Assembly (NCBI RefSeq): GCF_014235185.1
Contig: NZ_CP060131.1
Span: forward strand, 3,727,501-3,791,500
Reading direction: 5' to 3'
Length of the DNA: 64,000 nt
Origin: Pseudonocardia petroleophila
GTDB lineage: Bacteria > Actinomycetota > Actinomycetes > Mycobacteriales > Pseudonocardiaceae
A program made the position numbers and the translations under genes. The notes under the pieces were generated by a model. The model ran no database searches and was not told where the DNA came from. It saw only the letters and a program-made list of their open reading frames with translations. Shown here in pieces: positions 6,631 to 31,267 of the stretch; the first letter of the stretch is position 1, and each line of letters begins with the position of its first letter.

Positions 6631-6643
6631 CGCGGGGTGCCTT

Positions 6644-7186: not shown

Positions 7187-7196
7187 CGTCTCGCCC

Positions 7197-16012: not shown

Positions 16013-16040
16013 GCTAGAATGCTAGCCGGGAGTCACCGAT
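16013..16040 (+). promoter_or_regulatory. promoter/operator of the mhpB-like gene
   Basis: GCTAGAATGCTAGC (16013-16026) contains a good -10 hexamer TAGAAT (16015-16020) embedded in two GCTAG half-sites. GGGAG at 16028-16032 is a ribosome site 6 bp before ATG 16039. A protein on this motif would block the -10. The divergent GntR gene starts 110 bp away, so the site may also control that regulator. Confidence 0.5.
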
Positions 16041-16983
16041 GACGCTGTCCCTGTGCACGACGTCGCACACCCCGCTGATGGGCCGGGCCGACCCGGGCGC
16101 CGGTGTCCGGGAACGGGTCGAGGCCGCCTTCGACCAGGCGCGTGCCACCATCCGCGACGCCGATCCGGAGCTCGTGATCCTGTTCGCGCCGGACCACTAC
16201 AACGGCTTCTTCTACGAGGTCATGCCGCCGTTCTGCATCGCGGCCGCCGCCGAGTCGGTCGGTGACTACGGCCTGCCCGCCGGGCCGCTGCCGGTCGACG
16301 CCGCTGCCGCCCGCCGGATCGCCGCTGCCGTCCTCGCCGACGGCATCGACGTGGCGGTGTCCGAACGCATGCAGGTCGACCACGGGTTCACCCAGCCGCT
16401 GCACCTGCTCTTCGGCGCGATCGACGCCGTCCCGGTCGTGCCGGTGTTCGTCAACTGTGTGGCCGAGCCGCTGGGCCCGGTGACGCGGGCGCGCCTGCTG
16501 GGTGCCGCGGTCGGGCGCGCCGCGCAGGCCCTCGGCAGACGCGTGCTGATCATGGGCTCCGGTGGTCTGTCGCACGATCCGCCGGTTCCCCGGATCCAGG
16601 ACGCGCCGCCCGAGATCGCCGAGCGGCTGATAGCCGGGCGCAACCCGGCGCCCGAGGTGCGCGCGGCCAGGGAGTCCGGGGTGGTGCGGGCCGTCGCCGC
16701 CTTCGCCGCCGGCGACTCGCACCTGCTGCCGCTCAACCCCGGGTGGGACGCCGATCTGATGGCACTGCTCGCCGGTGGCGACCTGGAGAGCATCGACGCC
16801 CGGCCGAACGACTGGTTCGCCGCGAACGGCGGGCACTCCGCGCACGAGGTGCGCACCTGGATCGCCGCCTACGCCGCGCTCGGTGCCGCCGGCCGCTATC
16901 GGGTCGACACCTCCTTCTACGAGGCGATCCCGGAATGGATCGCCGGATTCGGGCTCACCACGGCCCGCACGCTCCCCGTCTAG
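16039..16983 (+). CDS. mhpB: 2,3-dihydroxyphenylpropionate-type extradiol dioxygenase (MhpB-like)
   Basis: 314 aa, the usual MhpB length. N-terminal CTTSHTPLMGRADPG holds His10, FAPDHYNGFF holds His53, and QVDHGF (His115) and GSGGLSHDPP (His179) fall at the numbers known for the acid-base residues of E. coli MhpB. The enzyme opens 3-(2,3-dihydroxyphenyl)propionate-type catechols with Fe(II). A hydrolase gene follows, as in mhp pathways. The HpaB/HpaC pair upstream could supply the catechol. The in vivo substrate could differ from phenylpropionate. Confidence 0.9.
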   Translation: MTLSLCTTSHTPLMGRADPGAGVRERVEAAFDQARATIRDADPELVILFAPDHYNGFFYEVMPPFCIAAAAESVGDYGLPAGPLPVDAAAARRIAAAVLADGIDVAVSERMQVDHGFTQPLHLLFGAIDAVPVVPVFVNCVAEPLGPVTRARLLGAAVGRAAQALGRRVLIMGSGGLSHDPPVPRIQDAPPEIAERLIAGRNPAPEVRAARESGVVRAVAAFAAGDSHLLPLNPGWDADLMALLAGGDLESIDARPNDWFAANGGHSAHEVRTWIAAYAALGAAGRYRVDTSFYEAIPEWIAGFGLTTARTLPV

Positions 16984-17008: not shown

Positions 17009-17086
17009 ATGGAACCCGACCCCCGGCGCAGCGCACTGTGCCACCGCGACGACGCCGCGCCGCGGACGCCGGCGGACGCGACATGA
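17009..17086 (+). CDS. 25-codon upstream open reading frame
   Basis: ATG 17009 is preceded by GGAGAAGAGG at good spacing and encodes a 25-residue Arg/Pro/Ala-rich peptide beginning MEPDPRRSALCHRDD. Its TGA overlaps the ATG of the hydrolase (ATGA). The hydrolase itself has no other ribosome site, so this short frame may exist to deliver ribosomes by coupling, or may be what is left of a deleted gene. No family recognised. Confidence 0.4.
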   Translation: MEPDPRRSALCHRDDAAPRTPADAT

Positions 17087-17943
17087 GCCGCCCGTCGATC
17101 TGGTCGGCGCTCGCGGGCCTCGCGTTCACCGTCGGCTACGTGCAGGTCGGCGAGTGGCGGACCCGGGTGCTGGAGGCGGGCGCGGGCGAGCCGCTGGTGC
17201 TCATGCACGGCACCGGCGGCCACATCGAGGCCTACGCGCACAATCTGGTGCCCCTCGCGCAGCACTTCCGCGTGATCGCCTACGAGTACCCCGGGCACGG
17301 GTGGACCACCCACGCCACCCGCGACCTGGAGCTGCCCGACTACGTCGCGCATCTGGACGGGCTGCTCGACGCGCTGGGCGTCGGGCGCGCCCACCTGTCG
17401 GGGGAGTCGCTCGGCGGCTGGCTGGCGCTCAAGTACGCGGCCGCCCATCCGGGGCGCGTCGGCCGGGTGCTGCTCAACACCCCGGGCGGCACGATGGCCA
17501 CCCCCGAGGTGATGGAGCGGATCCGCAGCCTGTCGCAGGCCGCTGCCGACGACCCCAGCCACGAGCGGATCAGGGCCCGCCTGGAGTGGCTGATGGCCGA
17601 CCCGTCCTCGGTCACCGAGGAGCTGATCGACATCCGCCGGACGATCTACGCCCGTCCCGGGTTCGCCGGGTCCATGCGGCACCTGCTGTGCCTGCAGGAC
17701 CCCGAGGTCCGCGCCCGCAACCTGGTCACCGACTCCGAGCTGGCCGCCGTCGCCGGGCCCGCGATGGTCGTGTGGACCAGCGACGACCCGTCCGGCCCGG
17801 CCGCCGCCGGGATGGCGATGGCCGAGAAGATGCCGGACGCCCGGTTCGAGGTGATCAAGGACGCGGGCCACTGGCCGCAGTGGGAGCAGCACGAGGTCTT
17901 CAACGCGCTCGCGCTGGACTTCCTGACCGGGAAGCGCGACTGA
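17083..17943 (+). CDS. alpha/beta hydrolase, probable ring-fission product hydrolase
   Basis: 286 aa, ATG 17083 overlapping a 25-codon frame. HGTGGH (oxyanion region, about 42-47), nucleophile motif GESLGG with Ser109, and a C-terminal AGHWPQWEQHEVFN with the catalytic His are clear. GHWPQWE is typical of meta-cleavage product hydrolases, and its place after the MhpB-like dioxygenase fits an MhpC role. The acid residue is less obvious (WTSDDPSG segment). It ends 5 bp before the convergent DUF35 gene. Confidence 0.88.
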   Translation: MSRPSIWSALAGLAFTVGYVQVGEWRTRVLEAGAGEPLVLMHGTGGHIEAYAHNLVPLAQHFRVIAYEYPGHGWTTHATRDLELPDYVAHLDGLLDALGVGRAHLSGESLGGWLALKYAAAHPGRVGRVLLNTPGGTMATPEVMERIRSLSQAAADDPSHERIRARLEWLMADPSSVTEELIDIRRTIYARPGFAGSMRHLLCLQDPEVRARNLVTDSELAAVAGPAMVVWTSDDPSGPAAAGMAMAEKMPDARFEVIKDAGHWPQWEQHEVFNALALDFLTGKRD

Positions 17944-17948
17944 GGAGC

Positions 17949-18359
17949 TCAGCCCACCGGGCGGAACTGCGGTACCTGCCCGCCCCCGCCCCGCGCCTCG
18001 AAGGTGAGCTCCACCCGCTGCCCGACCGCGACCGCGCCAGGGTCAGGCACGTCCACGAGGTTGGTCATCAGCTGGGGCCCGCCGTCGAGGGCGACGATCG
18101 CCACCACGTAGGGCTGGTCGTCGCGGTAGGCCTCGTAGGCGGCCTGGTGCACGACCGAGAACGTGACGACCTCACCGGTGGTGGCCGGGGGGCGCCAGCC
18201 CATCTCGGAGCCGCCGCAGCGCGGGCAGCGCGGCCGTGGCGGGAACACCCAGTCCGCGCACGGCTCGCACCACGGTGCGGACAGCTCACCGCGGGCCGCC
18301 GCGGCCCAGTAGAGCGCCGACAGTGCGGTGGGTTCGGGGGCGGGCTTCGCGGGGGCCAT
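17949..18359 (-). CDS. DUF35 OB-fold/zinc-ribbon protein, partner of the thiolase-like aldolase
   Basis: 136 aa. N-terminal helix ALSALYWAAAARGEL, a rubredoxin-like zinc ribbon CEPC-x10-CPRC, then the OB-fold with VVTFSVVHQAAYEAYRDDQPY. Start ATG 18359 touches the thiolase stop. DUF35 proteins pair with Cys-less thiolase homologues (ChsH2/Ltp2, IpfE/IpfD) to form CoA-thioester retro-aldolases. With the upstream thiolase this would release a short acyl-CoA from a hydroxylated substrate. Confidence 0.9.
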   Translation of the reverse strand: MAPAKPAPEPTALSALYWAAAARGELSAPWCEPCADWVFPPRPRCPRCGGSEMGWRPPATTGEVVTFSVVHQAAYEAYRDDQPYVVAIVALDGGPQLMTNLVDVPDPGAVAVGQRVELTFEARGGGGQVPQFRPVG

Positions 18360-19537
18360 CAGGACTCCGCCCGGTCGCCGAGGATCAGCGTGGCGTGCTC
18401 GGAGAGCATCCCGCCGTGGGTGTGCACGAGCGCCGTGGACGTCCTCGGGGCCTGGCGGTCCCCGGCACGCCCCATCACCTGCAGCGCGCCCTCGACGACC
18501 ATGCTCATCCCGGACGCGTCCCCGGTGTGCCCGAACGACATCAACCCTCCGTACGTGTTGACCGGCAGCGACCCTCCGGGCGCGGTGGCGCCGCTGCGGT
18601 AGAGCTCGGGAGCCTTGCCCCGCCCGGCGAGACCGCATTCCTCCAGGTACATCAGCGGGTTCGAGGAGAAGGAGTCGTAGAGCTGGGCGACGTCGATCTC
18701 CGAGGGGGCCAGTCCGGACATCGCGAAGGCCTGCCGGGCCGCGTCCGTCGCGCCGCCGGTGTCGAAGGTCGACCGCATGCTGACCGCACCCTCCATGTGC
18801 ACCTCCCCGTAGCCCAGCAGGTAGGCGGGGCGCTCGTTGACCGCGCGTGCCCGCTCCCCGCTGGTGACCAACAGTGCGGCACCTCCCTCCAGCGGCACCG
18901 AGCAGTCGTAGAGGTGGAACGGGCTCGCGATCATCCGCGAGCCCAGCACGTCGGCGACGGTCAGCGGGCCCTTGTCGCGCATGAACGCGTCCGGGTGCAG
19001 CAGCGCCCACTGCCGCTGGGCCACCGCCACCGCGGCCAGGTCCTCCCCGGTGGCGCCGGTCTCGGCCATCCAGCGCTGCGCGAACAGCGCGTAGAGCACC
19101 GGGATGTAGGTGCCGTAGGGGTACTCGAACTCCGGATGGCTGACGAACTTGGCGATCTTCTCACCGCTGGCCGCGCCCACCTTGGGGAACTTGCCGGCGG
19201 AGATGCACAGCACGGCGTCCGCGCGCCCGGCCGCGATGGCCTCGGCGGCGCGGGCGACCATCAGCGCGTAGCCCGCGCCACCGGCGTACATCGTCTGGGA
19301 GAACCGGGGCCGGATGCCCAGCTCGTCGGCGACCTTCTCGTGCACCGCGACGTCCGCGCCGCCCTCGGTGAGCACCCCGGTCGGTGCGGCCAGCACGCCG
19401 TCGATGTCACCGGGGCGGACGTCCCACTGGTCGAGGAACGCGGAGATCACCGCGGAGTGCAGGGCGAGCTCGTCGAGCTCGGGATAGCGGCCGGGCCGGA
19501 TCTCGGTGACGGCCGCCAGGGCCGGGTCGTTGCGCAC
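18359..19537 (-). CDS. thiolase-superfamily aldolase (Ltp2/IpfD-like), no nucleophilic Cys
   Basis: 392 aa, GTG 19537 with GAGGGAG upstream. The fold is that of SCP-x/lipid-transfer thiolases, but at the nucleophile loop it reads QTMYAGGAGYAL (about 81-92) with no Cys. The QLYDSFSSNPLM segment matches the region of the catalytic Tyr of Ltp2-type aldolases, and LPVNTYGGLMSFGHTG closes the active site. Together with the coupled DUF35 protein it should perform retro-aldol cleavage rather than thiolysis. It lies 44 bp after a dioxygenase beta subunit, as in ipf-type clusters. Confidence 0.88.
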   Translation of the reverse strand: MRNDPALAAVTEIRPGRYPELDELALHSAVISAFLDQWDVRPGDIDGVLAAPTGVLTEGGADVAVHEKVADELGIRPRFSQTMYAGGAGYALMVARAAEAIAAGRADAVLCISAGKFPKVGAASGEKIAKFVSHPEFEYPYGTYIPVLYALFAQRWMAETGATGEDLAAVAVAQRQWALLHPDAFMRDKGPLTVADVLGSRMIASPFHLYDCSVPLEGGAALLVTSGERARAVNERPAYLLGYGEVHMEGAVSMRSTFDTGGATDAARQAFAMSGLAPSEIDVAQLYDSFSSNPLMYLEECGLAGRGKAPELYRSGATAPGGSLPVNTYGGLMSFGHTGDASGMSMVVEGALQVMGRAGDRQAPRTSTALVHTHGGMLSEHATLILGDRAES

Positions 19538-19581
19538 GTGCTCCCTCTCGGGTCGGGGTGGCTGATCGTCGGGGCTGGTCT

Positions 19582-20079
19582 TCAGAGCAGGAACGCCATC
19601 GACGGGACGGCTCCGGTGCGGTCCACGAGCAGCACCTTCTTGCGGGTCATCCGCAGCCCGCCGTCACCGGCCGGGTCCACCAGGTCGAACTCGAGCCGCC
19701 CGGCCCAGACGTGCGTGCGGTCCATCCGGAACTCGTGCAGCGCGAACGCGGCGTGCACGGTGACGGCTCCCGGCCCGGCGTGCTCGCGCTCGACACCGGA
19801 GACGATGCGCACCGTCCGGGAGAACGGCACCTGCGAGTAGCGCTCACCGGTCAGCAGCTGCCGCACCCGGGTGTTCATCCGGCGGCCGTTGTCGTAGACG
19901 TAGGAGATGACGCCGGTCCCGTCGTGGTCGTCCCCGGCGGGGACCCAGTACAGGACGTCGCGGTCGTCCGCCCACAGCCCGAGCCAGTCGTCGTAGCGGC
20001 GCTCGTCGAGCAGCCGGGCCTCCCGGTAGACGAACGCCTGCGCCGCGTCCGGTGAGACGTCGAGCACCGAGCCGGTCAT
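19582..20079 (-). CDS. ring-hydroxylating dioxygenase beta subunit (system 3)
   Basis: 165 aa, ATG 20079 overlapping the ligase stop (ATGA). It carries the small-subunit signature AAQAFVYREARLLDERRYDDWL, LYWVPAG, FSRTVRIVSGVE and a closing VLLVDRTGAVPSMAFLL. Its partner alpha subunit is at 21958, separated by a CoA ligase and a 75-aa gene, an unusual order for Rieske systems. No other unpaired alpha is near, so the assignment is strong. Confidence 0.9.
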   Translation of the reverse strand: MTGSVLDVSPDAAQAFVYREARLLDERRYDDWLGLWADDRDVLYWVPAGDDHDGTGVISYVYDNGRRMNTRVRQLLTGERYSQVPFSRTVRIVSGVEREHAGPGAVTVHAAFALHEFRMDRTHVWAGRLEFDLVDPAGDGGLRMTRKKVLLVDRTGAVPSMAFLL

Positions 20080-21734
20080 CGCGTTCCCACCGCGGCGGTG
20101 CGGTGCCAGGGAAGGCGTTCGGGATGCTCCGCCAGGTCGGCGATGATGGTCGGCTTGAGCACCTTGCCGGTGACTCCGCGGGGCAGCGCGTCGACGACCG
20201 CGACGTGCTTGGGCACCTGGAACGCGCCGAGCCGCTCCCGGCAGAAGGTCAGCAGCCCGGCCGGGTCCGGGGTGGCGCCCCGTCGGGCCTCGACGATCGC
20301 GACCACGGCCTCGCCCCACTCCTCGTGCGCGGCGCCGACCACCGCGACGTCGGCCACGTCGGGGTGCTGGGCCAGCACGTTCTCCACCACGCTCGGGTAC
20401 ACGTTCATCCCACCTGTAATGATCATGAAGTTCTTGCGGTCGGTGAGGTAGAGGTAACCCTCGTCGTCCATCCGGCCGATGTCGTGGGTGCGGATCCACT
20501 CACCGTCCAGTAGCCCGGCGGTGAGCTCGGGAAGCCGGTGGTAGCCCAGGCAGTTCATCGGGGACCGCAGCCGGACCTCACCGCTCTCACCGCGGGCCAC
20601 CTCGCGGCCGTCGTCGTCGGTCACCGCGACGTCGACCCAGGGTCCGGGCCGGCCGCAGGACGTCAGCAGGCCCGGCTCGCCCCCGAGCCCGCGCAGGTGG
20701 TCGGCGTGGGTGAGCACGGTGACCCAGCCGCCCGAGCACTCGGTGATGCCGTAGATCTGCACCAGCGCCGTGGCGGGCAGCGCGGCGTGCACCCGGTGCA
20801 GCAGCGCCGGGGGAGCGGGCGAGGAGCCGTAGACCAGGGTCCGGAAGCTCGACAGGTCGTGGCTCCCACCGTCACCGTGGTCGAGCTCGTCGAGCACGCG
20901 GCGGATCATCACCGGGGCCAGCACCGTGCCGGTGACCCGGTGCCGCCCCACGGTGTGCAGGAAGTGCGCGGCGTCGAAGCCGCCCGGCCCGCCGGGCAGC
21001 ACCACCGTCATCCCGTTCACCAGCCCGAGCAACGCGAGCAGGCTGGCGATCCAGGCCAGCGAGGTGGCCTGGAACCACACGTCGTCCGGACCCAGGCCGG
21101 TCATCAGGACGGTGTGCACCAGCACCGCGGCGACCGCGGCCTGGCTCACCAGCACACCCTTCGGCATGCCGGTGGTGCCGGAGGTGTAGCTGATCAGCGC
21201 CAGGTCGCCGGGGCGCGGCGCGGGCAGGTCCAGCGCCGGGCCGGCGGACAGCTCGCCGAAGGAGGCGTCGAAGTCCGCGAGGCGCGGCGCGGCCGGGTCC
21301 CCAGGGGTCAGGGAGACCAGCAGCCGGCCCTCCGCGCGCAACGCGCGCTCCTCGCCGCCGAGCAGGTCCGCCAGCGCGGCCTCGACCACCACCATCCGGG
21401 CGTCGCAGTCGCGCACGACGTGCAGCACCTCCCGGGCGGCGAAACGGGCGTTGATCCCGACCCGGACCGCGCCCAGGCGCAGGCAGGCCAGGTAGTGCAC
21501 GAACACCTCGAGCCGGTCACGCGCCAGCATCCCGACCGCGTCGCCCGGCGCGACGCCCAGCGCAGCCATCCCCGACGCGAGCGCGCCGACCTGCGCGTCG
21601 AGCTCGGCCCAGGTCAGCGAGCGGCCGTCCTCGCGCACGGCGGTCTTGTGCGGGGCCCGGCGGGCCCACCCGGCCAGCAGTTCCCCGGCCAGCACCGGCC
21701 CGGCGGCCCCCGCCGGGCCCGTCGCGCCGGTCAC
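20076..21734 (-). CDS. AMP-forming acyl/aryl-CoA ligase (IpfF-like position)
   Basis: 552 aa, GTG 21734 in a GTGA overlap with the 75-aa gene. Adenylation-domain motifs: YTSGTTGMPKG, QIYGITECSGG, WIRTHDIGRMDDEGYLYLTDR and a C-terminal RGVTGKVLKPT with the catalytic Lys. It sits between dioxygenase alpha and beta genes and shares the operon with a thiolase/DUF35 aldolase, so it probably activates an arylalkanoic acid before ring dioxygenation. Start choice follows the coupling pattern; the frame upstream lies in the neighbouring gene. Confidence 0.88.
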   Translation of the reverse strand: MTGATGPAGAAGPVLAGELLAGWARRAPHKTAVREDGRSLTWAELDAQVGALASGMAALGVAPGDAVGMLARDRLEVFVHYLACLRLGAVRVGINARFAAREVLHVVRDCDARMVVVEAALADLLGGEERALRAEGRLLVSLTPGDPAAPRLADFDASFGELSAGPALDLPAPRPGDLALISYTSGTTGMPKGVLVSQAAVAAVLVHTVLMTGLGPDDVWFQATSLAWIASLLALLGLVNGMTVVLPGGPGGFDAAHFLHTVGRHRVTGTVLAPVMIRRVLDELDHGDGGSHDLSSFRTLVYGSSPAPPALLHRVHAALPATALVQIYGITECSGGWVTVLTHADHLRGLGGEPGLLTSCGRPGPWVDVAVTDDDGREVARGESGEVRLRSPMNCLGYHRLPELTAGLLDGEWIRTHDIGRMDDEGYLYLTDRKNFMIITGGMNVYPSVVENVLAQHPDVADVAVVGAAHEEWGEAVVAIVEARRGATPDPAGLLTFCRERLGAFQVPKHVAVVDALPRGVTGKVLKPTIIADLAEHPERLPWHRTAAVGTR

Positions 21735-21958
21735 CGGCGGCCCGGTCCGTCGGCGGCACGTTCGGTGCGGGCGATGATCCGGTCCGGGTCGCTGAACCGG
21801 GCCAGCTCCGCCGGATCGGTCCACACCAGCGCCTCGAGCTGCATCGGGTCGAGGTACACCGCCGCGCCACCGCGCAGCAGGTCGCGGATCCGCAGCCGGG
21901 CGCCGTGGCCGGTCTCGTCGAGCTCCACCTCGACGGCGGCGAACTCGTTGGACAGCAT
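21731..21958 (-). CDS. 75-aa protein of unknown function between dioxygenase alpha and CoA ligase
   Basis: ATG 21958 overlaps the alpha-subunit stop (ATGA), and its own stop overlaps the ligase start (GTGA), so it is tightly coupled on both sides. Sequence features: an acidic N-terminal strand EFAAVEVELDETGHGARLRI, then MQLEALVWTDPAELARFSD and a basic tail. No cysteine, no signal peptide, no membrane segment. I do not recognise a family. Coupling suggests an accessory or subunit role for the oxygenase or ligase, but this is inference. Confidence 0.7.
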   Translation of the reverse strand: MLSNEFAAVEVELDETGHGARLRIRDLLRGGAAVYLDPMQLEALVWTDPAELARFSDPDRIIARTERAADGPGRR

Positions 21959-23253
21959 CACCGGCCCGACCCCCCGCCGGTCATCAGGCGCAGGTAGTTG
22001 CGCCAGAACGCGCGGTGGCTGGTGTCGTCGGTGGCGTTGGAGACCTCGACGCCGTCGGGCAGGGTCTGCTCCCGGTGCAGCCCGCGGCTGCGCAGCAGCC
22101 ACTCCGGTTGCCGCGCGGCCATCCCGCGGAAGTTGCGCTCGTACATCGCGCTGTCGTCGGCGATCACCATGCCGGCCGGGCCGATCGACCCACCGGTCAG
22201 CTGGAAGGCGCGCCGGTTGAGCTGCTCGGCGCCCTTCCAGCGGATCGGGGCCTGGTGCTGGATCGTGCCGCCGGCCGCGAGCGGCTCGATGACCAGGATG
22301 AACAGCTCGGCGATGAACAGGTTGGGGAAGATCATCGTGTGCGGCGGGCCGTCGACGAGCAGCTCGTCGGCGTGGTCGCGGCCGTGCCGCTGCGCGAGCG
22401 CCGCGGCGTAGTCGGACAGCTTCTCCTCGGCGCTGGCACCGAGCCAGAGGTACTTGCGCCCGACCTTGCGGAACTGCGGGCGCCAGTCCATGTCGGTGTG
22501 CCCGTTGCCGAGGTAGCGGGTCTGCGACAGCGCCTTCTCGCTGGTGACGTCGGCGTCGGCGACCAGTGACCAGTTGCCCATCATGGTCAGCGACCGGTGC
22601 ACGAAGTTGCCGTGGTAGGCGTCGATCTCGTTCTCGAACGCGATCTTCCAGTTGGTCTCGGTGCGGTGGTGCAGCCAGCCCGCGGTCAGCTCCACCTCGC
22701 CCTCGGGGGACAGCTCGCAGAGCCGGTCGATGGTCTCCCGGGCCGGCCCGAGGAACTCCGCCAGCGTCGGGACGTCGGCGGCGACGCTGGCGAACAGGAA
22801 GCCGCGGTAGTCCTGCGCGTGCGCCGGGCGGGCCAGGCCGTGGTCGGCGCGGGCGAAGTCGGGCCCGTAGCCCGGCCGGAACGGCACCCCGACGAGCTCG
22901 CCGTCGTTGCGGAAGGTCCACCCGTGGTACGGGCAGCGGAACGACGAGGAGTTGCCCGTCCGGTCGTGGCAGAGCAGGTTCGCCAGGTGGCTGCACCGGT
23001 TGAACAGGACGTGCACCTCGCCGTCGGCGCCGCGGCTCACGATCACCGGCTGGGTGCCGATGGTCTTGAGGACGTAGTCGCCGGGCTGCGGGACCTCGCT
23101 GGTGTGGGCGACGTACACCCACCCGGAGTGGAAGATCCGGTCCATCTCGTCGGCGAAGACCTGCGGGTCGGTGTAGAGCCGGGAGTGCACGCGGTCGGTC
23201 CGGACCAGCTCCGCGTACGGGACGCCGGTGGCGGCGTCGGTGGCGGCGCTCAC
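21958..23253 (-). CDS. Rieske ring-hydroxylating dioxygenase alpha subunit (system 3)
   Basis: 431 aa, GTG 23253 in a GTGA overlap with the catechol dioxygenase gene. Rieske ligands Cys87/His89 (CSHLANLLC) and Cys107/His110 (CPYHGW); mononuclear iron motif DAYHGNFVH within NEIDAYHGN. Within an operon holding a CoA ligase, beta subunit, Cys-less thiolase and DUF35 protein, it is a candidate for ipso,ortho-dioxygenation of an arylacetyl- or arylpropionyl-CoA, as known for IpfAB. The catechol product would go to the coupled 2,3-dioxygenase. Confidence 0.92.
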   Translation of the reverse strand: MSAATDAATGVPYAELVRTDRVHSRLYTDPQVFADEMDRIFHSGWVYVAHTSEVPQPGDYVLKTIGTQPVIVSRGADGEVHVLFNRCSHLANLLCHDRTGNSSSFRCPYHGWTFRNDGELVGVPFRPGYGPDFARADHGLARPAHAQDYRGFLFASVAADVPTLAEFLGPARETIDRLCELSPEGEVELTAGWLHHRTETNWKIAFENEIDAYHGNFVHRSLTMMGNWSLVADADVTSEKALSQTRYLGNGHTDMDWRPQFRKVGRKYLWLGASAEEKLSDYAAALAQRHGRDHADELLVDGPPHTMIFPNLFIAELFILVIEPLAAGGTIQHQAPIRWKGAEQLNRRAFQLTGGSIGPAGMVIADDSAMYERNFRGMAARQPEWLLRSRGLHREQTLPDGVEVSNATDDTSHRAFWRNYLRLMTGGGSGR

Positions 23254-24164
23254 GTGAGCGCCGACACGAAGGTGTCCTTGACCTCCCGGCCGATGTAGAA
23301 GATCCCTTGCGCGAGCTTGTCCGCCGTCCAGGTGATGGTCGGGAAGTCGGGGTAGACCAGGTAGCCGCCGGAGAACACCTCGTTGCGGTTCCCGGCCGGG
23401 TCGAAGAAGTAGATCGTCTGGCCGCGGGTGATGCCGTGCCGGGTCGGGCCGGCGTCCACCGGTACGTCGTCCATCGAGAACAGGTCGCCGGCGTGCCGGA
23501 TGGCGTTCCAGTCCTCGAGCAGGTACGCGAAGTGGTGCAGCTTGCCGTTGGGGCCCTGCAGGAACGCGATGTCGTGCGGGGTGTTGGAGCACGACATCCA
23601 GGAACCGATCAGCGCGCCGTCGTCGCTCTGGTCGGTGACCAGGCGCTCCACGGCGCGGAAGTCGAGCACCTCGGCGAAGTAGCGCTCCAGCGTCACCGGG
23701 TCCTCCGCGGTGATGGCGGCGTGGTCGATCCGCGGGACGCCCACGCCGACGAGGTGCCGGGGGAACGGGGCCGGGTTCAGCGCGCCCACCTCCGTGCCCA
23801 CGCACTCGGTGTCGGAGTAGAGCTCCATGACGTGCTCGCTCGGCATCACGATGCGGACCCCGTCGCCGACGGCCAGGTTGTCCCCGGCACTCATCCGCTC
23901 GGTGATGCAGCCGAACGCCTGGGCCCGCTTCTCGTAGACGTCGAGGTCCTCGGAGCGGGCGACCTTATAGCCCAGCTTGGCCAGCCCGACCCCACCGGGC
24001 TCGACGACCACGGAGTGGTGGTCCCACTCGTCCCAGGCCTTGAAGTACAGCTTGCCGTCCTGCTCGGCGGTCAGCCGCATCCCGAGGGTGTCGCCGTAGT
24101 GCGACTTGGCCTCCTCGACGTCGGTGACCCGCAGATGTACGTACCCCAGTCGCATGACGGCCAT
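23250..24164 (-). CDS. catechol 2,3-dioxygenase, VOC family (XylE-like)
   Basis: 304 aa, near the 307 of XylE, with two VOC modules. Iron ligands are visible as His148 (RIDHAAI), His210/211 (KLHHFAYLLE) and Glu262 (GNRNEVFSGG). The N-terminal MRLGYVHLRVTDVEEAKSHY is XylE-like. It opens catechols next to the hydroxyls. It is followed by coupled dioxygenase genes and preceded by a plant-type ferredoxin, which in xyl pathways reactivates the oxidised iron of this enzyme. Confidence 0.94.
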   Translation of the reverse strand: MAVMRLGYVHLRVTDVEEAKSHYGDTLGMRLTAEQDGKLYFKAWDEWDHHSVVVEPGGVGLAKLGYKVARSEDLDVYEKRAQAFGCITERMSAGDNLAVGDGVRIVMPSEHVMELYSDTECVGTEVGALNPAPFPRHLVGVGVPRIDHAAITAEDPVTLERYFAEVLDFRAVERLVTDQSDDGALIGSWMSCSNTPHDIAFLQGPNGKLHHFAYLLEDWNAIRHAGDLFSMDDVPVDAGPTRHGITRGQTIYFFDPAGNRNEVFSGGYLVYPDFPTITWTADKLAQGIFYIGREVKDTFVSALT

Positions 24165-24201
24165 GTCCGTGCTCCTCGTTGCCTCGTGGTGGTGGTGGAG
24201 A

Positions 24202-24552
24202 TCAGGTGGTGTCGGGCCCGCCGCGGGCCCGCCGGGCCGCCGCGGCGTGCAGGAACGGCAGGACGACCTTCAGACGCTCGTCGCGCAGCCGGACCACCAC
24301 GTCACCGCGCGGCACGGCGCGGCAGGTCAGGCAGGTCCCGTCGCGGCGCTCCTGGTCGGTGAGGACGGTGGCGGCCACGACGGCCGGGTAGTCGACCGCA
24401 CCCTCGATGAGGTCGACCTTGCACAGCGCGCAGCCGCCGCGGCGGCAGCCGACGCGGTAGCCGTATCCGGAGCGGAACAGCGCCGCCAGCACCGTCTCGC
24501 CGGCCCGGGCGGTGACCCGGACCCCGTCGGGCTGGACCTCGATGTCCGCCAC
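24202..24552 (-). CDS. plant-type [2Fe-2S] ferredoxin (XylT-like)
   Basis: 116 aa from GTG 24552; a GTG two codons upstream (24558) lies too close to the GGGAG ribosome site, which favours 24552. Cluster ligands follow CX4CX2C (CRRGGCALC) with a later CLTC. The short beta-grasp domain and position before a catechol 2,3-dioxygenase match XylT, which rereduces inactivated dioxygenase iron. It could also feed the Rieske oxygenase of the same operon. An Ala/Arg-rich tail extends the usual length. Confidence 0.85.
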   Translation of the reverse strand: MADIEVQPDGVRVTARAGETVLAALFRSGYGYRVGCRRGGCALCKVDLIEGAVDYPAVVAATVLTDQERRDGTCLTCRAVPRGDVVVRLRDERLKVVLPFLHAAAARRARGGPDTT

Positions 24553-24650
24553 GTCCACTCCCGTCCGGCGAGTTCGTTCGACCTATCAGTCAGGAGAATT
24601 ACACTCGATTCGGGGCCGGTCAAGAGCCGGCCGGTCCCGGGCGACGGCGC

Positions 24651-25424
24651 TCAGCGACCCGGGAACCGGGGGGCCCGCTTCTCCTGGAACGCCGTGATCC
24701 CCTCGAGATGGTCGGCGGAGCCCATCGCGAGGGTCTGGTGGGCGATCTCCAGCTCGAGGTAGCTCTCCAGGTCGCCGCTGACCGACCGGTGGGCCAGCGC
24801 CTTGCCCAGGCCGAACGCCCGGGTCGGGCCCTCGGCGAAGCGGTGCGCCATGGCCATCGCCGCCGCCAGCAGCTCGTCGGGCGGGTGGATCTCCCGCACC
24901 AGGCCGAGCCGCTGCGCCTGGGTCGCGTCGAGCGTCTCGGCGAACAGGAACATCTCCTTGGCGCGGTGCAGGCCGACCATCCTCGACAGCAGCCACAGAC
25001 CGCCGCCGTCGGGCACCAGCCCGACGTTGGCGAAGCTGGCGATCATGCGCGATCCCGTCGCGGCGAGCCGCACGTCCCCGGTGAGGGTGATCGAGAAGCC
25101 GACCCCCGCCGCCACCCCGTTGACGGCCACGATCAGGGGTTTCTCGATGGCCAGCAGCGCGAGGGTGGCGGCGTTCGCGCTGCGCATCCAGGTGCGGGCG
25201 GCGCCCGGGTCGGGACGCGCGCTCATCGCCGCGATGTCGCCGCCCGCGCAGAAGGCCCGCCCGGCGCCGGTGAGCACCACCGCCCGCACCGCGGGGTCGG
25301 CCTGCACCTGCGCGGCCCGGTCCGCGAGCTCGCTGCGCATCGCGTGGTCGAGTGCGTTGAGCTTCTCGGGCTTGTTCAGGGTCAGGACGGCGACCGCGCC
25401 GTCGCGGTCGAGGGTGACGCTCAT
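24651..25424 (-). CDS. enoyl-CoA hydratase/isomerase, PaaG-like
   Basis: 257 aa, ATG 25424 overlapping the dehydrogenase stop (ATGA). Crotonase fold: AFCAGGDIAAMS oxyanion loop, NGVAAGVGFSITLTGDVR, then SFANVGLVPDGGGLWLLSRM. Asp in VPDGGG stands where classical hydratases have the second Glu; the same replacement is typical of PaaG-type isomerases. It closes the igr-like side-chain module and may isomerise or hydrate an intermediate there. Confidence 0.88.
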   Translation of the reverse strand: MSVTLDRDGAVAVLTLNKPEKLNALDHAMRSELADRAAQVQADPAVRAVVLTGAGRAFCAGGDIAAMSARPDPGAARTWMRSANAATLALLAIEKPLIVAVNGVAAGVGFSITLTGDVRLAATGSRMIASFANVGLVPDGGGLWLLSRMVGLHRAKEMFLFAETLDATQAQRLGLVREIHPPDELLAAAMAMAHRFAEGPTRAFGLGKALAHRSVSGDLESYLELEIAHQTLAMGSADHLEGITAFQEKRAPRFPGR

Positions 25425-27802
25425 CGAACGTCCACCGGTAGCGAGGAGGGACCGTTATCGGGGTGCATGGTGCCTCCGTCGGAGCGCTGAGGTGGATCGA
25501 CCGGGCGGTCGAGGGCGTCGAGACCGAGGGTGCTCGGCCGGTCGGCCCGGTAGCGACGGGCGAGGACCGCCAGGTGCTCGGCCGCCGTCCCGGCGGACAG
25601 CGCGACGGCGGTCGCGCGGCGCGAGTACAGGTACAGGTCGGACTCCGTCACGTAGCCGATGGCGCCGTGCAGCTGGTGGGCGAGCCTACTGATCGCGGTC
25701 GCGGCACGCCCGGCCCGGGATTTTGCCGCCGCGACCGACCTCCGCGTCGGACGTCCGGCGCCGAGGTCGGCGAGGGCGGCGTCGACCAGCAGCCGCGCGC
25801 ACTCCAGCGCCGAGCCCATGTCGGCGACGTGGTGGGCGACGGCCTGGAAGGTGCCGATCGGGCGGCCGAACTGCTCGCGCCCGCCGACGTGGGCGACCGT
25901 CCGCTCCAGCAGTTCCTCGGCGAGGCCGACCAGCTCGACGGCGGCCAGCAGCGCGCACACGTCGGCGACGCCGTCGGCCCGGTCCGGGCGCAGGGGCGCC
26001 GAGACGTCCGCGGTCCGCAGGGCCACCGCGGTGCAGACGACGGTGCCGAGCGACTCGCCGGAGATCGACCGCAGCGGCACCACGGTGAGCCCGTCGGCCG
26101 CGGTGTCAACGATGACCAGCCGGGGCGCGCCGGCGTCGTCGGCGGCGAGTGCCACCACGACGGCACCTGGCGTGGCGTCCTCCAGCCGGTGCAGGTCGCC
26201 GTCGAGCCGGTACCCCGCGCCGTCCGGGCGCAGAGCCAGCCGGCCCGGCGGCGCGGCGACGGTGGCGGCGCCGGTCGCGAGCCGGGGCAGCCACCGCCGC
26301 TGCTGCTCGGCCGAGCCGGCTCCGGTCAGGGCCAGCGCCGCCGCGGCCGTGCAGCGCAGGGTGCTGGGCAGCGCGGCCCGCGCGGCTTCCGCGAGCACGA
26401 CGGCGAGGTCCGCCGGCGCGGCCCCGGCGCCGCCGTACGCCTCGGGGACGGCCAGCGCCGGCCAGCCCTGCCGGCACACCGCGGTCCACAGCTCGGCGCG
26501 GTGACCGGCGTCGTCGCGGGCCAGGCGGCGGCGGTCGACGTGGTCGCGCAGGAAGGCCGCCGCGGACCCGCGCAGCGCCCGGTGTTCCGGGCTCTCGCCG
26601 GTCCGGGGCCTGGCCCGCCCGACCGCGGCCGGCGCGGACCGCGCCGAGGTGGGCAGGCCGTAGCGGCGCTGCGCGACCATCGTGCGCTGCACCTCGTTGG
26701 TGCCGCCGCCGAAGCGCAGGTAGGGAGCTCGCCGGTAGGTCAGCTCGGCGAACCCGTCGAGCGGCGATCCGGGCTCGCCCAGTGCCAGCCGGGAGCGCTC
26801 TCCGCACATCTCCAGTGCGGCGTCGGAGAGCTCGGCCACCAGCTCGGTGGCGGCGACCTTGAGCATCGCGGCGTCGGCGTCGGACAGCCGGCCGGCGTCG
26901 ATCTCGCGCAGCGTGCGCAGCGCGAGCAGGCGCACCGCGCGCACCCGGGTCTCCAGCTCGGCGAGCCGGACCGCGGTGGCCCCGTCCGGCCCGGCGCCGC
27001 GGCTCAGCTCGGCGGTGAGCCCGTCGAACAGGCGGCGCAGCACCCCAACCCCGGCGATGCCGACCCGTTCGAGGGCGAGCGCGGTGGTGACGTAGGTCCA
27101 GCCCTGCCCGGCCTCGCCGATCAGGTGGTCGGCGGGCACCCGGACCCCGGTGAAGGTGACCTCGTTGGTGCGCAGCCCGCCCCAGGTGGGCAGCGCCCGG
27201 ACCGCGATGCCCGGCGAGTCGAGCGGGACGGCGATGATGCTGATCCCGCGGTGCCGCGGTGCGTCGGGGTCGGTACGGCAGGCCAGCCACTCGTGGGTTG
27301 CGTGGTGGGCCCCGGTGTTCCACAGCTTGTGGCCGTCGATCACCCAGTCGTCGCCGTCGCGGACCGCGCGGCAGCGCAGGTTCGCGAGGTCGGTGCCCGC
27401 GACGTCCTCGCTGTAGCCCAGCGCGAACTCGGTCTCACCGGAGACGATCCCCGGCAGCCAGCGGCGGCGCTGCTCGTCGGTGCCGATGCGGGCGATCGTC
27501 GGGCCGATCGACACCGTCGTCATCAGGTCCGGGTGCGGAGTGCCGAGGTAGTCGCACGCCTCGAAGAACAGGAACTGCTCGACCGCGGTGCGGCCCTGGC
27601 CGCCGTACTCGGCCGGCACCCCGATCCCGAACCAGCCCCGCGCGACCATCGTCTCCAGTATTCCGCGGACGGCCGGGTGCCGGTCGGCGACGGCGGTCTC
27701 CCGCCAGTCGGGCAGCGCGGCCCGCAGCTCGGGGGTCAGGTGCTCCAGCAGGACGTCGCGCACCTCGCGCTGCCAGGCGTCCTCGGCGGGGGTCAGGTCC
27801 AT
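25421..27802 (-). CDS. double-domain acyl-CoA dehydrogenase (fused FadE pair)
   Basis: 793 aa, twice the usual length. Domain 1 (about 1-390) is complete: ALGYSEDVAGTDLANLRCRA flavin loop, WGGLRTNEVTF, and FGGGTNEVQRTMVAQRRYG. After a Pro/Arg-rich linker, domain 2 (about 430-760) repeats the fold but its flavin loop is degenerate (PPGRLALRPDGAGYRLDGD), while EQFGRPIGTFQAVAHHVADM and LHGAIGYVTESDL remain. This resembles steroid-side-chain dehydrogenases that work as alpha2beta2 pairs (FadE28/FadE29) or as a fusion (FadE34). Coupled to MaoC, DUF35 and aldolase genes, it should start beta-oxidation of a bulky acyl-CoA. Confidence 0.88.
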   Translation of the reverse strand: MDLTPAEDAWQREVRDVLLEHLTPELRAALPDWRETAVADRHPAVRGILETMVARGWFGIGVPAEYGGQGRTAVEQFLFFEACDYLGTPHPDLMTTVSIGPTIARIGTDEQRRRWLPGIVSGETEFALGYSEDVAGTDLANLRCRAVRDGDDWVIDGHKLWNTGAHHATHEWLACRTDPDAPRHRGISIIAVPLDSPGIAVRALPTWGGLRTNEVTFTGVRVPADHLIGEAGQGWTYVTTALALERVGIAGVGVLRRLFDGLTAELSRGAGPDGATAVRLAELETRVRAVRLLALRTLREIDAGRLSDADAAMLKVAATELVAELSDAALEMCGERSRLALGEPGSPLDGFAELTYRRAPYLRFGGGTNEVQRTMVAQRRYGLPTSARSAPAAVGRARPRTGESPEHRALRGSAAAFLRDHVDRRRLARDDAGHRAELWTAVCRQGWPALAVPEAYGGAGAAPADLAVVLAEAARAALPSTLRCTAAAALALTGAGSAEQQRRWLPRLATGAATVAAPPGRLALRPDGAGYRLDGDLHRLEDATPGAVVVALAADDAGAPRLVIVDTAADGLTVVPLRSISGESLGTVVCTAVALRTADVSAPLRPDRADGVADVCALLAAVELVGLAEELLERTVAHVGGREQFGRPIGTFQAVAHHVADMGSALECARLLVDAALADLGAGRPTRRSVAAAKSRAGRAATAISRLAHQLHGAIGYVTESDLYLYSRRATAVALSAGTAAEHLAVLARRYRADRPSTLGLDALDRPVDPPQRSDGGTMHPDNGPSSLPVDVR

Positions 27803-28200
27803 CCGAGCTCGACCGTTCCCTCGCCGGTGGTGGTGGTGCGCCCGTCGGCGGTGGCCAGCCAGACCTCGCAGCGGACCGTCCGGCCGTCGGTACCGACCTC
27901 GAGCACCCGCCCGTGGGCGAGCAGCTCCTCGTCGACGTAGGCCGACGCCCGGTTGCGGTAGCGGAGTTCGACCAGCCGGCCCGGCCGGGCCCACCCGGTG
28001 AGCAGCTGTTCGAGGTAGGTGCCCTGCAGCGGCCCCGGCACCACGACCGCGGGATGGCCGGCGACGTCGCGGGTGTAGTCGGCGTCGTAGTGGATGCGGT
28101 GGGAGTTCCACAGCACGGCCGAGTACTGGAACAGCTCGACGGCGTCGGGCCGGTGGCCGACCGGCCCGAGCGGGTCGCCGACCAGGGGGTGGTCGCTCAT
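27793..28200 (-). CDS. MaoC-family dehydratase, ChsH1-like
   Basis: 135 aa hot-dog protein. The segment FQYSAVLWNSHRIHYDADY carries the His-rich hydratase loop of this family, followed by VVVPGPLQGTYLEQLL. ATG 28200 overlaps the upstream MaoC stop (ATGA), and its end overlaps the dehydrogenase start by 10 bp. In igr-type operons such a subunit pairs with a second MaoC domain to hydrate a bulky enoyl-CoA. Confidence 0.85.
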   Translation of the reverse strand: MSDHPLVGDPLGPVGHRPDAVELFQYSAVLWNSHRIHYDADYTRDVAGHPAVVVPGPLQGTYLEQLLTGWARPGRLVELRYRNRASAYVDEELLAHGRVLEVGTDGRTVRCEVWLATADGRTTTTGEGTVELGWT

Positions 28201-28691
28201 CGCAGGATCCGGGAGTAGTCCTCCACCACGACCTCCTCGCCGAGCTGGTTGGTGAGCCGGTGCCGCAGTCCCATGAGCACGAACGGGCCCGACGAGCCGG
28301 ACTTCTCGGTCAGCCCGGTGATCGTCTTCTCCAGGGTGATCCGGTCGCCGGCGTGGATCCGGCCGGGGAACCGGGCCCGGGTCTCCCCTGCCATCACCTG
28401 GGTCACGGCCATCGGGGGGAGGTCGGCGTCGGGGGTGCCGTCCTCGGCGAGTGCGGTGCGCGGCCGGATCAGCGCCGCCGAGATGCGCACGGCCACGTAG
28501 AACCCCGGCGGGGCCACGATCGTGCGGTACCCGGCGGCGTGGGCGGCAGCCTCGTCGAAGTGCTCGGGCGCGGTCTCACCGACGGCGTGGCAGTACTTCG
28601 CGATGTCGGTGGCGCTCACCTGCACCGTCACCGGCGGGTCGCTGCGTCCGATCCAGGCCCGCGCCTCGTCGGTGACCAGCCCGCCGGTCAC
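28197..28691 (-). CDS. MaoC-like dehydratase, N-terminal ChsH2-like domain
   Basis: 164 aa, GTG 28691 in a GTGA overlap with the DUF35 gene. It has the FAS1-type hot-dog N-domain: VSATDIAKYCHAVGETAPEH, TIVAPPGFYVAVRI, INAGDRIT-like RIHAGDRITLEKTITGLTEK and VVVEDYSRILR. In mycobacterial igr operons this domain is fused to DUF35 in ChsH2; here the two are separate but coupled genes. It probably forms the hydratase with the 28200 MaoC protein. Confidence 0.85.
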   Translation of the reverse strand: MTGGLVTDEARAWIGRSDPPVTVQVSATDIAKYCHAVGETAPEHFDEAAAHAAGYRTIVAPPGFYVAVRISAALIRPRTALAEDGTPDADLPPMAVTQVMAGETRARFPGRIHAGDRITLEKTITGLTEKSGSSGPFVLMGLRHRLTNQLGEEVVVEDYSRILR

Positions 28692-29122
28692 CGGGAACCG
28701 CTCCCGGCGGGCTGCCAGACCGGCAGCGCGATGCCCGGGGCGACCGGCTCGAACGCCACCTCCAGCGGCATGTCGATCTCCAGCTGCCCCGGTGGCACGC
28801 CGCGCAATCGGCCGAGCATCCGGGCCGGCGCGTCGTCGAGCTCGACCGCACCGACCGCGAACGGCAGCGCATCGGCGTAGGCCGCGATCGTGGTGTGGTG
28901 CACGACCGTCCACGTGAACAACGAGCCGGTGCCCGCGACGGGCAGCCAGCGCAGCTCGGCCGGACCGCACCCCCCGCAGGTGTCGCGCGGCGGCCACTGC
29001 ACCCGGTCGCACGCGGCGCACCGCTGCACCACGAGCGAGCCGCGGGCGGCGGCGGCCCAGTACCCGCCCAGCACCGGGTCGTCCGGGTCGGGCAGCGGTG
29101 GTGTGGCCCGCTGCGCGCTCAC
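28688..29122 (-). CDS. DUF35 OB-fold/zinc-ribbon protein (split ChsH2 C-terminal part)
   Basis: 144 aa, GTG 29122 overlapping the thiolase stop. N-terminal PVLGGYWAAAARGSL helix, zinc ribbon CAACDRVQWPPRDTCGGCG, then OB-fold GSLFTWTVVHHTTIAAYADA. Pairing with the Cys-less thiolase immediately upstream predicts a CoA retro-aldolase of the Ltp2/ChsH2 type. Its downstream neighbour is the MaoC domain that is fused to it in the mycobacterial homologue. Confidence 0.88.
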   Translation of the reverse strand: MSAQRATPPLPDPDDPVLGGYWAAAARGSLVVQRCAACDRVQWPPRDTCGGCGPAELRWLPVAGTGSLFTWTVVHHTTIAAYADALPFAVGAVELDDAPARMLGRLRGVPPGQLEIDMPLEVAFEPVAPGIALPVWQPAGSGSR

Positions 29123-30261
29123 CGGGTCAGCACCGCGATCGCGCCGTCGCCCATGTCGCCCCATCCGGTCACCGCGACCACCTCCGCCCCGGGGACCTGG
29201 CGGTCCCCGCCGTCGCCGCGCAGCTGCACGACCGCCTCCACCACGTGGTTCATCCCGGCGATGTGCCCGTCGGAGAGCAGCCCGCCGTGCGGGTTGACCG
29301 GGAGCCGCCCGCCGAGCGCGATGCCGCCGTCGGCCACGAACGGGCCGCCGTCGCCGCGGGCGCAGAACCCGGCCTCCTCCAACTGCTGGATCACCTCGAA
29401 GGTGAAGCAGTCGTAGATCATCGCCGCGTCCACGTCCGACGGGGTCACCCCGGCCATCGCGAACGCGCGCGGTGCCGCCCTGGTCAGCCCGACGGTGAAG
29501 AAGTCGCGGCGGTTGACCAGGTCGTCGGGCGAGTCCGGGTGGCCCTCGGCCAGCCCGGCCAGGTGTACCGGGCGGTGGCGCAGGTCGCGCGCCCGGTCCG
29601 CGGCCACCACCAGCACCGCACCGGCACCGTCGGTCTCCTGGCAGCAGTCGAGCAGCAGGTAGGGCTCGGCGATCGGCCGGCTGCTGCGGTACTGCTCCAT
29701 CGTCATCGGCCGCCCGTGCATCTGCGCGTGCGGGTTCAGCTGGGCGTGCGCGCGCATGGCCAGCGCGACGGCGCCCAGGTGCTCGCGGGTGGTGCCGAAC
29801 TCGTGCATGTGCCGGCGGGCGATCATCGAGTACCACTGCGCGGGCGTGCTGAACCCGTGCGGGTGCTCCAGCTGGCGGCGGTAGCGCTGGCCGGGCAGCA
29901 GCACCCCGATCCGCTGCTCGACCCGCGACCCCGAGCGGCCGTTGCGCGCGACGAACACGAGCACGCAGCGGGCCGCGCCGCTGGCCACGGCCAGTGCGGC
30001 GAGCCGCAGCCCGGCGACCGTGCTGGCCCCGCCCAGGTGCGGCACCGCCGTGAACGTCACGTCGGGCAGCCCGAGGCCCGCGATCAGGTCCTCGGCCGAG
30101 GGCCCGAACGGGAACGGCACGATGCCGTCCACCGCCGAGGTGGGCAGGCCGGCGTCGGCGCACGCCGCCCTGGCGGCCTCCACGGCGAGGCGCTCGGCAC
30201 TGCGGCCGCTGGCCCGGGAGAACTCGGTCAGCCCGATCCCGGCCACGCACGTCCCGGTCAC
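29119..30261 (-). CDS. thiolase-superfamily aldolase (Ltp2-like), no nucleophilic Cys
   Basis: 380 aa, GTG 30261 in a GTGA overlap with the upstream oxygenase gene. SCP-x thiolase fold, but the nucleophile loop reads VPHLGGASTVAGLRL without Cys. MIYDCFTFEVIQQLEEAGF aligns with the catalytic-Tyr region of Ltp2, and LPVNPHGGLLSDGHIAG follows. With the coupled DUF35 protein it probably releases acetyl- or propionyl-CoA from a hydrated side chain. It is a different sequence type from the copies at 18359 and 51608. Confidence 0.87.
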   Translation of the reverse strand: MTGTCVAGIGLTEFSRASGRSAERLAVEAARAACADAGLPTSAVDGIVPFPFGPSAEDLIAGLGLPDVTFTAVPHLGGASTVAGLRLAALAVASGAARCVLVFVARNGRSGSRVEQRIGVLLPGQRYRRQLEHPHGFSTPAQWYSMIARRHMHEFGTTREHLGAVALAMRAHAQLNPHAQMHGRPMTMEQYRSSRPIAEPYLLLDCCQETDGAGAVLVVAADRARDLRHRPVHLAGLAEGHPDSPDDLVNRRDFFTVGLTRAAPRAFAMAGVTPSDVDAAMIYDCFTFEVIQQLEEAGFCARGDGGPFVADGGIALGGRLPVNPHGGLLSDGHIAGMNHVVEAVVQLRGDGGDRQVPGAEVVAVTGWGDMGDGAIAVLTR

Positions 30262-31262: not shown

Positions 31263-31267
31263 CGCTG

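Follow-up and report, generated by a model that had tools for sequence, protein, structure and literature searches.

Gene content and layout of the operon

The window, i.e., the whole 64,000-nucleotide stretch analysed here, covers positions 3,727,501-3,791,500 of the Pseudonocardia petroleophila genome (G000), which is assembled as one 6.49-Mb contig. On its minus strand, a run of eight genes reading from 24558 to 17949 combines a two-subunit Rieske oxygenase with an acyl-CoA ligase, a thiolase-fold aldolase, its DUF35 partner, and a catechol 2,3-dioxygenase (C23O). This operon probably catabolises a substituted arylacetic or 2-arylalkanoic acid by a mechanism resembling that of the ibuprofen (ipf) genes, with components of mosaic origin. 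In gene order, with lengths in amino acids (aa), it comprises:

24202-24558, minus strand: plant-type [2Fe-2S] ferredoxin, 118 aa, probable XylT-like C23O helper (Fer2, 54.5 bits)
23250-24164, minus strand: catechol 2,3-dioxygenase, 304 aa (TIGR03211, 364.7 bits)
21958-23253, minus strand: Rieske oxygenase alpha subunit, 431 aa (Rieske and Ring_hydroxyl_A domains)
21731-21958, minus strand: conserved small protein, 75 aa, Rieske companion (homologues at alpha loci)
20076-21734, minus strand: AMP-forming acyl-CoA ligase of the IpfF clade, 552 aa (AMP-binding, 268 bits)
19582-20079, minus strand: Rieske oxygenase beta subunit, 165 aa (Ring_hydroxyl_B, 81.8 bits; 45% identical to IpfB)
18359-19537, minus strand: SCP2-thiolase-fold aldolase, 392 aa, Sal lineage (Tyr287, Ser289, His337)
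17949-18359, minus strand: DUF35 aldolase partner with zinc ribbon and OB fold, 136 aa (OB_ChsH2_C, 73.7 bits; zf-ChsH2, 31.6 bits)

A sequence-only reading of this DNA had described an ipf-like operon with the same gene set, strand, and order, all of which were recovered here. The span it gave, 17949..24552, is exact at 17949, but the ferredoxin frame has its first start codon at 24558. Its junctions, described as mostly 4-base overlaps, are of that kind in three of seven cases (C23O/alpha, 75-aa/ligase, and ligase/beta); two others overlap by 1 base (alpha/75-aa and thiolase/DUF35), and intergenic gaps separate the ferredoxin from the C23O gene (37 bp) and the beta from the thiolase gene (44 bp). 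With the ipf cluster of pIBU218 (L008), a plasmid named in PMC9195938, as reference, counterparts of the whole ipfABDEF activity set were found in one operon together with its own C23O, as had been claimed; identities were 37% with IpfA, 45% with IpfB, 38% over 234 aa with IpfD, 32% with IpfE, and 39% with IpfF. The ligase and 75-aa genes do stand between alpha and beta, unlike the arrangement in ipf. The DUF35 protein has two CxxC pairs, and its gene adjoins the thiolase gene as in the ipf cassette.

The C23O exceeds the curated TIGR03211 cut-off of 320.2 bits, is 40.5% identical to XylE, and retains equivalents of the XylE residues H153, H199, H214, H246, Y255, and E265. The ferredoxin is 33% identical to XylT and 32.5% to the N-terminus of XylZ, the latter with the better score; XylT is a helper of XylE, and xylT and xylE are neighbours on pWW0. 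The operon encodes no short-chain dehydrogenase/reductase (SDR), and the nearest SDR among the open reading frames scanned, a set covering the window ends in part, lies at 41072-41902.

The whole eight-gene order is preserved in two other genomes, G024 (98-100% identity) and G059 (90-100%). Between the window and G059, dN/dS ranges from 0.01 to 0.34 over the eight genes (0.15 for the 75-aa gene), so that all eight are under purifying selection relative to this copy. Matches to the alpha subunit at E<=1e-155 occurred in 4 of 390 genomes in a family-wide search, the window's own among them, and the only aldolase match at E<=1e-100 in a draw of 396 genomes from the phylum was the window's own; the operon is thus rare within the genomes searched.

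Lineages of the aldolase, oxygenase, ligase, and small protein

Set against canonical SCP2 thiolases from other clusters (ENxC and HDCF motifs), the window aldolase has Gly87 and Ser289 at both catalytic cysteine positions, and Tyr287 replaces the His of HDCF. The thiolase cysteines are therefore lost and an aldolase-type Tyr is present, and assignment as a canonical SCP2 thiolase was rejected, the nucleophilic Cys and the HDCF Cys being replaced. The protein had been called Cys-less, which is right for these two positions only; Cys111, Cys212, and Cys301 are present. Reported catalytic pairs are Tyr294 and Tyr344 in TcLtp2 and Tyr302 and Cys304 in CtSal (PMC12329534). Among the aligned aldolases, IpfD, the proteobacterial Ipf-type proteins, and those of the actinobacterial DK17-type clusters described below all retain a Tyr in the column of Tyr344 and share a deletion of three residues. 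The window aldolase has neither this deletion nor the FYLQG Tyr motif, and His337 occupies the Tyr344 column, as does a His in Cup_T, Sph_T, and Myc_T. An acid role for His337 is our proposal; the residue may also be an ancestral one that was retained, the His of the GHPxGAS motif of canonical thiolases falling in the same column.

The aldolase tree was built from 34 of 47 rows (out: own_T56, own_T51, L124, L081_2, five Rq/Mav-type thiolases, and several near-duplicates of DK17 or w_T51 type). The aldolases of the window, G059, and the congener G028 group with Cup_T and Sph_T (95/94), then with Myc_T and a paralogue from the window genome (100/98), and then with CtSal (83/89), a distant relationship of moderate support. 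TcLtp2 groups with IpfD and the DK17-type thiolases (92/88), and Sals and Ltp2s have been reported as separate clades (PMC12329534). Forcing the window aldolases together with IpfD and the DK17 type cost 54 log units and was rejected by the approximately unbiased (AU) test (p-AU 1.8e-5). The sequence-only reading had tied the thiolase to IpfD and had named clustering elsewhere as evidence against itself; the protein falls on the Sal side, and the operon is therefore termed ipf-like in mechanism rather than an ipf operon. The window thiolase is 53% identical to a Cupriavidus and 50% to a Sphingobium protein, with no window-type Rieske alpha match in their fetched surroundings.

In the alpha subunit, C87/H89/C107/H110 and D211/H214/H219/D367 are invariant across five aligned alphas. 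Three trees were computed: a broad tree (64 of 102 extracted alphas, the window, and six references), a 45-row tree without its longest branches except HcaE, L048_1, and L050_1, and a quick tree from which these three were removed and to which three plasmid rows were added. In the 45-row tree, the alphas of the window, G024, G059, and G028 form one branch within a clade (100/99) that also contains IpfA, the DK17-type alphas, and many alphas of actinobacterial and proteobacterial CoA clusters. XylX and HcaE fall outside this clade; in the broad tree, the same holds for BphA1, NdoB, an alpha from Thermus, and the 7yls chain, and several of these outsiders are on long branches. In unconstrained trees, the window branch joined CoA-cluster alphas (84/69 in the 45-row tree; 98 in the quick tree) and not IpfA. 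A grouping with Ipf, DK17-type, and Binatota-type rows was not rejected (p-AU 0.396, 45-row tree), whereas a grouping with proteobacterial IpfA alone was (p-AU 3.8e-5, quick tree). The expected separation from the benzoate/toluate-type XylX and the clade shared with IpfA thus held, but an exclusive tie to IpfA did not, and the window alpha is best placed as a lineage of its own inside a large CoA-linked clade common to IpfA. It is 48-50% identical to alphas of other clusters on Pseudonocardia, Mycobacterium, and Rhodococcus plasmids. Benzoate 1,2-dioxygenase was rejected as an assignment (TIGR03229, 185.6 bits against a cut-off of 780.95; XylX outside the clade). The second-best match in a PDB search, 7yls/8h2t (186.9 bits), is presumably an indole-3-acetate Rieske oxygenase and differs in lying outside the clade on a long branch.

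As had been suggested, the ligase is IpfF-like. In two trees (38 rows less 11 and less 13, long branches and second ligases of DK17-type loci being left out and three plasmid rows added to the second), the window and G059 ligases fall inside the IpfF clade (100/100), nearest to a ligase from an Immundisolibacteraceae metagenome-assembled genome (83/68 in the first tree; 88/82 in the second). A grouping with DK17-type ligases was rejected (p-AU 4.6e-6).

Homologues of the 75-aa protein occur at 51 of 98 scanned alpha loci, all 51 actinobacterial as judged from record titles or kinship, and none was found at the proteobacterial loci scanned. Another is found beside Rieske genes on a Thermus plasmid, with a weaker match on a Geobacillus plasmid. 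The usual place of the gene is directly 3' of beta, and it heads the DK17-type clusters. Its consensus reads NEFAxVxVxxD...RLRLEDLRTGRVRYLDALELE...LLDPS, and neither Pfam nor NCBIfam gave a match. The AlphaFold2 model (predicted local distance difference test 84.8) has three strands followed by helices, without a convincing match in the PDB. The protein thus represents a conserved, nameless family accompanying actinobacterial Rieske alpha/beta genes, and, judging by these neighbours, it is likely to be an accessory to the oxygenase.

These lineages bear on the simplest origin of the operon, the uptake of a plain ipfABDEF operon, whole, from Proteobacteria by an actinomycete. The ligase in the IpfF clade and an alpha in the same large clade as IpfA agree with such a transfer, but the rejected groupings of the aldolase with the IpfD/DK17 clade and of the alpha with proteobacterial IpfA alone, the failure to find the small protein at the proteobacterial loci scanned, and the presence in G028 of the core genes without an IpfF-type ligase make it highly improbable. 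The phylogenies point instead to a mosaic, with an aldolase of the Sal lineage, a ligase of the IpfF lineage, and an alpha from a separate lineage of the oxygenase clade to which IpfA belongs.

Modules seen apart and the genomic surroundings

In the congener G028 (380 contigs, 94% complete), one contig carries alpha, small protein, beta, aldolase, and DUF35 genes in this order, the alpha being 69% and the aldolase 77% identical to those of the window, along with genes for a CoA-transferase III, an aldehyde dehydrogenase, and a CitE-like protein. Here, beta directly follows the small gene, with no ligase in between. The closest C23O (85%) and ferredoxin (71%) genes form a pair on a separate contig. 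The best of four ligase matches genome-wide, the one placed in a tree, is 40% identical and groups with window-genome paralogues outside the IpfF clade (quick tree). Because G028 displays these modules apart, the window operon reads as three joined modules: a ferredoxin-C23O pair, a five-gene Rieske/aldolase core, and a ligase. The relative L042 has the alpha-small-beta-aldolase-DUF35 order without a ligase in between, so that the window ligase looks inserted, which accounts for the unusual gene order. That the direction was insertion rather than loss in G028 is suggested by the proteobacterial kin of the ligase. As the ferredoxin and C23O genes move as a pair, the ferredoxin more likely helps the C23O than feeds the Rieske oxygenase.

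Two genes on the plus strand converge on the operon, one for an MhpB-like class III extradiol dioxygenase (16039-16983; 458 bits against a cut-off of 291) and one for an HsaD/BphD-like hydrolase below cut-offs (17038-17943). Further left is an HpaB oxygenase above the HpaB-1 cut-off. Upstream of the operon (24651-34335, minus strand) lies a module that resembles the igr logic of steroid side-chain removal. It encodes an enoyl-CoA hydratase (ECH), two acyl-CoA dehydrogenases fused into one protein of 896 aa, MaoC-like and nitronate-monooxygenase-like proteins, a thiolase that is sister to Ltp2, an ADP-forming acyl-CoA synthetase, and a CitE-like lyase.

Such a neighbourhood might mean that the operon serves separate substrates, the Rieske oxygenase making an ordinary diol while the Sal-like aldolase and DUF35 protein, together with the upstream beta-oxidation module, trim the branched side chain of an alicyclic (steroid- or terpenoid-like) acyl-CoA. 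Consistent with this are the Sal lineage of the aldolase, the position of Cup_T and Sph_T beside DUF35 genes with no window Rieske alpha match in the fetched 12-kb flanks, the upstream module with its Ltp2-sister thiolase, MaoC-like protein, and fused acyl-CoA dehydrogenases, and the CitE-like gene of L042, which is 63% identical to that of the module. Yet aldolase and DUF35 genes stand directly behind alpha/beta in G028 too, on a 15.5-kb contig where the rest of the upstream module was not seen; moreover, the operon has no diol dehydrogenase for an ordinary diol, and its own C23O requires a catechol. We therefore regard this division of labour as unlikely.

The convergent genes raise another possibility, namely that the same chemistry acts on a 3-arylpropionic or cinnamic-type acid with the participation of the upstream ECH/dehydrogenase module and the MhpB-like and hydrolase genes. 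The latter two remain beside the operon in G024 and G059, and IpfF is reported to take 3-phenylpropionate as well, from which strain RW412 can yield catechol under ipf induction (PMC9956071). Both genes are on the opposite strand, however, and the G028 locus shows only a 34% hydrolase, so that a substrate of this kind appears quite unlikely. A substituted arylacetic or 2-arylalkanoic acid is the substrate class that we favour. Since the genome encodes a PaaE above its cut-off, phenylacetate itself would go through paa, and the operon probably serves acids beyond the reach of that pathway.

Also in favour of this catabolic reading, a 4-hydroxy-2-oxovalerate aldolase above cut-off adjoins a semialdehyde-dehydrogenase-like gene below cut-off at 6.11 Mb of the contig. 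The window contains two additional Rieske loci, noted in passing. In one (5653-9512, minus strand), a 771-aa frame includes an alpha, and a beta and a DHDPS-family gene come after it; the other, at 2888-4620 (plus strand), has an alpha at 2888-4099, 34% identical to that of the operon, and a beta match downstream.

Proposed pathway and comparison with known systems

A route from CoA activation through ipso-dihydroxylation to retro-aldol cleavage has been reported for ibuprofen in Sphingomonadaceae (PMC9195938). The corresponding steps in the window, and their substrate, are what we infer from the genes, families, residues, phylogeny, and conservation set out above. The ligase would make the aryl-acyl-CoA, and the alpha/beta oxygenase, served by a reductase from outside the operon, would dihydroxylate the ring at the carbon bearing the side chain and at its neighbour. 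The product would be a non-aromatic cis-diol and also a tertiary beta-hydroxyacyl-CoA, which the thiolase-fold/DUF35 aldolase could split by retro-aldol cleavage, with Tyr287 as the base and His337 as the probable acid. This would free acetyl-CoA or propionyl-CoA and restore the ring as a catechol; as the retro-aldol step itself would rearomatise the ring, no diol dehydrogenase would be needed. Finally, with the XylT-like ferredoxin keeping it active, the C23O would open the ring by meta cleavage.

Several observations weigh against this pathway. The aldolase lies outside the IpfD clade and lacks the IpfD Tyr pair, and could therefore act on another compound; among its nearest relatives, none was seen next to Rieske genes. 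The upstream beta-oxidation-like module has its own Ltp2-like thiolase, so that the true substrate may be larger. A domain profile search of the operon genes found neither a Rieske ferredoxin nor a reductase. A limited literature search found no tested alpha of the window lineage, nor a tested Sal-lineage aldolase beside a Rieske oxygenase.

If correct, the pathway implies that actinomycetes have at least two more versions of ipf-type chemistry (the window type and the DK17 type), the window version relying on an aldolase that belongs to the steroid Sal side of its family. It would supply more gene markers for the degradation of arylalkanoic acids, e.g., profen drugs, would extend a heterogeneous enzyme family by a Tyr/His aldolase, and would draw attention to the large CoA-linked Rieske clade, of which IpfA is, to our knowledge, the sole tested member. 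More tentatively, and with somewhat less than even confidence, we propose that CoA-dependent dearomatisation followed by retro-aldol cleavage was assembled more than once: a Sal-lineage Tyr/His aldolase would have assumed the ring-rearomatising cleavage performed elsewhere by the Ltp2-side IpfD, on a Rieske oxygenase of separate lineage; a proteobacterial cassette would have contributed the IpfF-type ligase at a later stage; and the 75-aa protein would be an accessory subunit, so far overlooked, of the Rieske oxygenases of actinobacteria.

In the literature consulted, ipf genes have been reported from Sphingomonadaceae and other Proteobacteria (PMC9195938, PMC9956071). The ipfABDEF genes of Rhizorhabdus wittichii MPO218 and Sphingomonas Ibu-2 resemble the window operon in clustering a ligase, a two-subunit Rieske oxygenase, a thiolase-fold retro-aldolase, and a DUF35 protein. 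The likeness proposed by the sequence-only reading survives for the ligase, placed in the IpfF clade, and for the alpha, which shares a clade with IpfA; it fails as orthology of the whole set, the aldolase differing in lineage and active-site pair and the alpha in lineage, with an extra 75-aa gene and a ligase between alpha and beta. In MPO218, the C23O gene (ipfL) and a neighbouring ferredoxin gene are reported in a separate cluster (PMC9195938), and Ipf-type loci L126, L127, and L129 also contain a C23O match (41-44%). The pairing of a plant-type ferredoxin with an adjoining catechol 2,3-dioxygenase gene has a parallel in xylT-xylE of the TOL plasmid pWW0 (L132), where the two genes instead belong to a meta operon for toluate that includes a diol dehydrogenase.

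Among aldolases, the steroid side-chain enzyme CtSal-Shy(DUF35) (9myr) shares with the window protein its side of the tree (83/89), the position of the Tyr base, and a DUF35 partner. YDCY and Gln352 of CtSal correspond to YDSF and His337 in the window protein, the catalytic Cys304 of CtSal being replaced by Ser289; the DUF35 partner of the window protein lacks a hydratase domain and stands in a Rieske context. TcLtp2-ChsH2(DUF35) (6ok1) is alike in fold, DUF35 partnership, and Tyr base; its second catalytic residue, Tyr344, is a His in the window protein, and Ltp2 lies on the IpfD side of the tree.

Many clusters of a further, uncharacterised kind (L005-L007, L052, L064, L068, L089, and others) combine ECH, ligase, alpha, beta, small protein, OB-fold fusion, and SCP2 thiolase genes in actinobacteria, with a proteobacterial version ordered alpha-beta-ECH-SDR-OB-thiolase. 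Those of their alphas that were placed in the tree belong to the same clade as IpfA.

Among the best 80 of 590 loci in a survey of named loci, which may omit genomes very near the window's own, seven were of the Ipf type (L122, L124-L129; L125 stops after the aldolase and L128 has no ligase match), nine of the DK17 type (L106-L109, L112, L114, L118, L120, L123), and none of the window type. Further Ipf-type clusters are present on plasmids of Nitratireductor (no DUF35 gene listed), Variovorax WDL1, and Paraburkholderia aromaticivorans, and further DK17-type clusters on pDK3 of Rhodococcus DK17 and in G105. Outside Proteobacteria, the literature consulted gave one strain, M. aubagnense HPB1.1, probably an actinomycete. 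The Ipf homologues reported for its genome (A 45%, B 44%, D 36%, E 38%, F 32%) are identity-based candidates whose gene numbers put A/B and D/E apart (PMC11347016).

The DK17-type clusters also bring together small protein, aldolase, DUF35, alpha, beta, and ligase genes in actinobacteria. They differ from the window operon in their ligase clade and in their order, small-aldolase-DUF35-alpha-beta-ligase, found in Mycobacterium, Frankia, Tomitella, Rhodococcus, and Pseudonocardia parietis (e.g., L010, 8051-13445), and no window-type C23O match was seen at these loci. No description of them was met in the literature, the searches not having been aimed at DK17 by name. With an aldolase that falls with IpfD in the tree and is 44% identical to it, the DK17-type clusters are closer relatives of ipf among actinobacteria than the window operon is.

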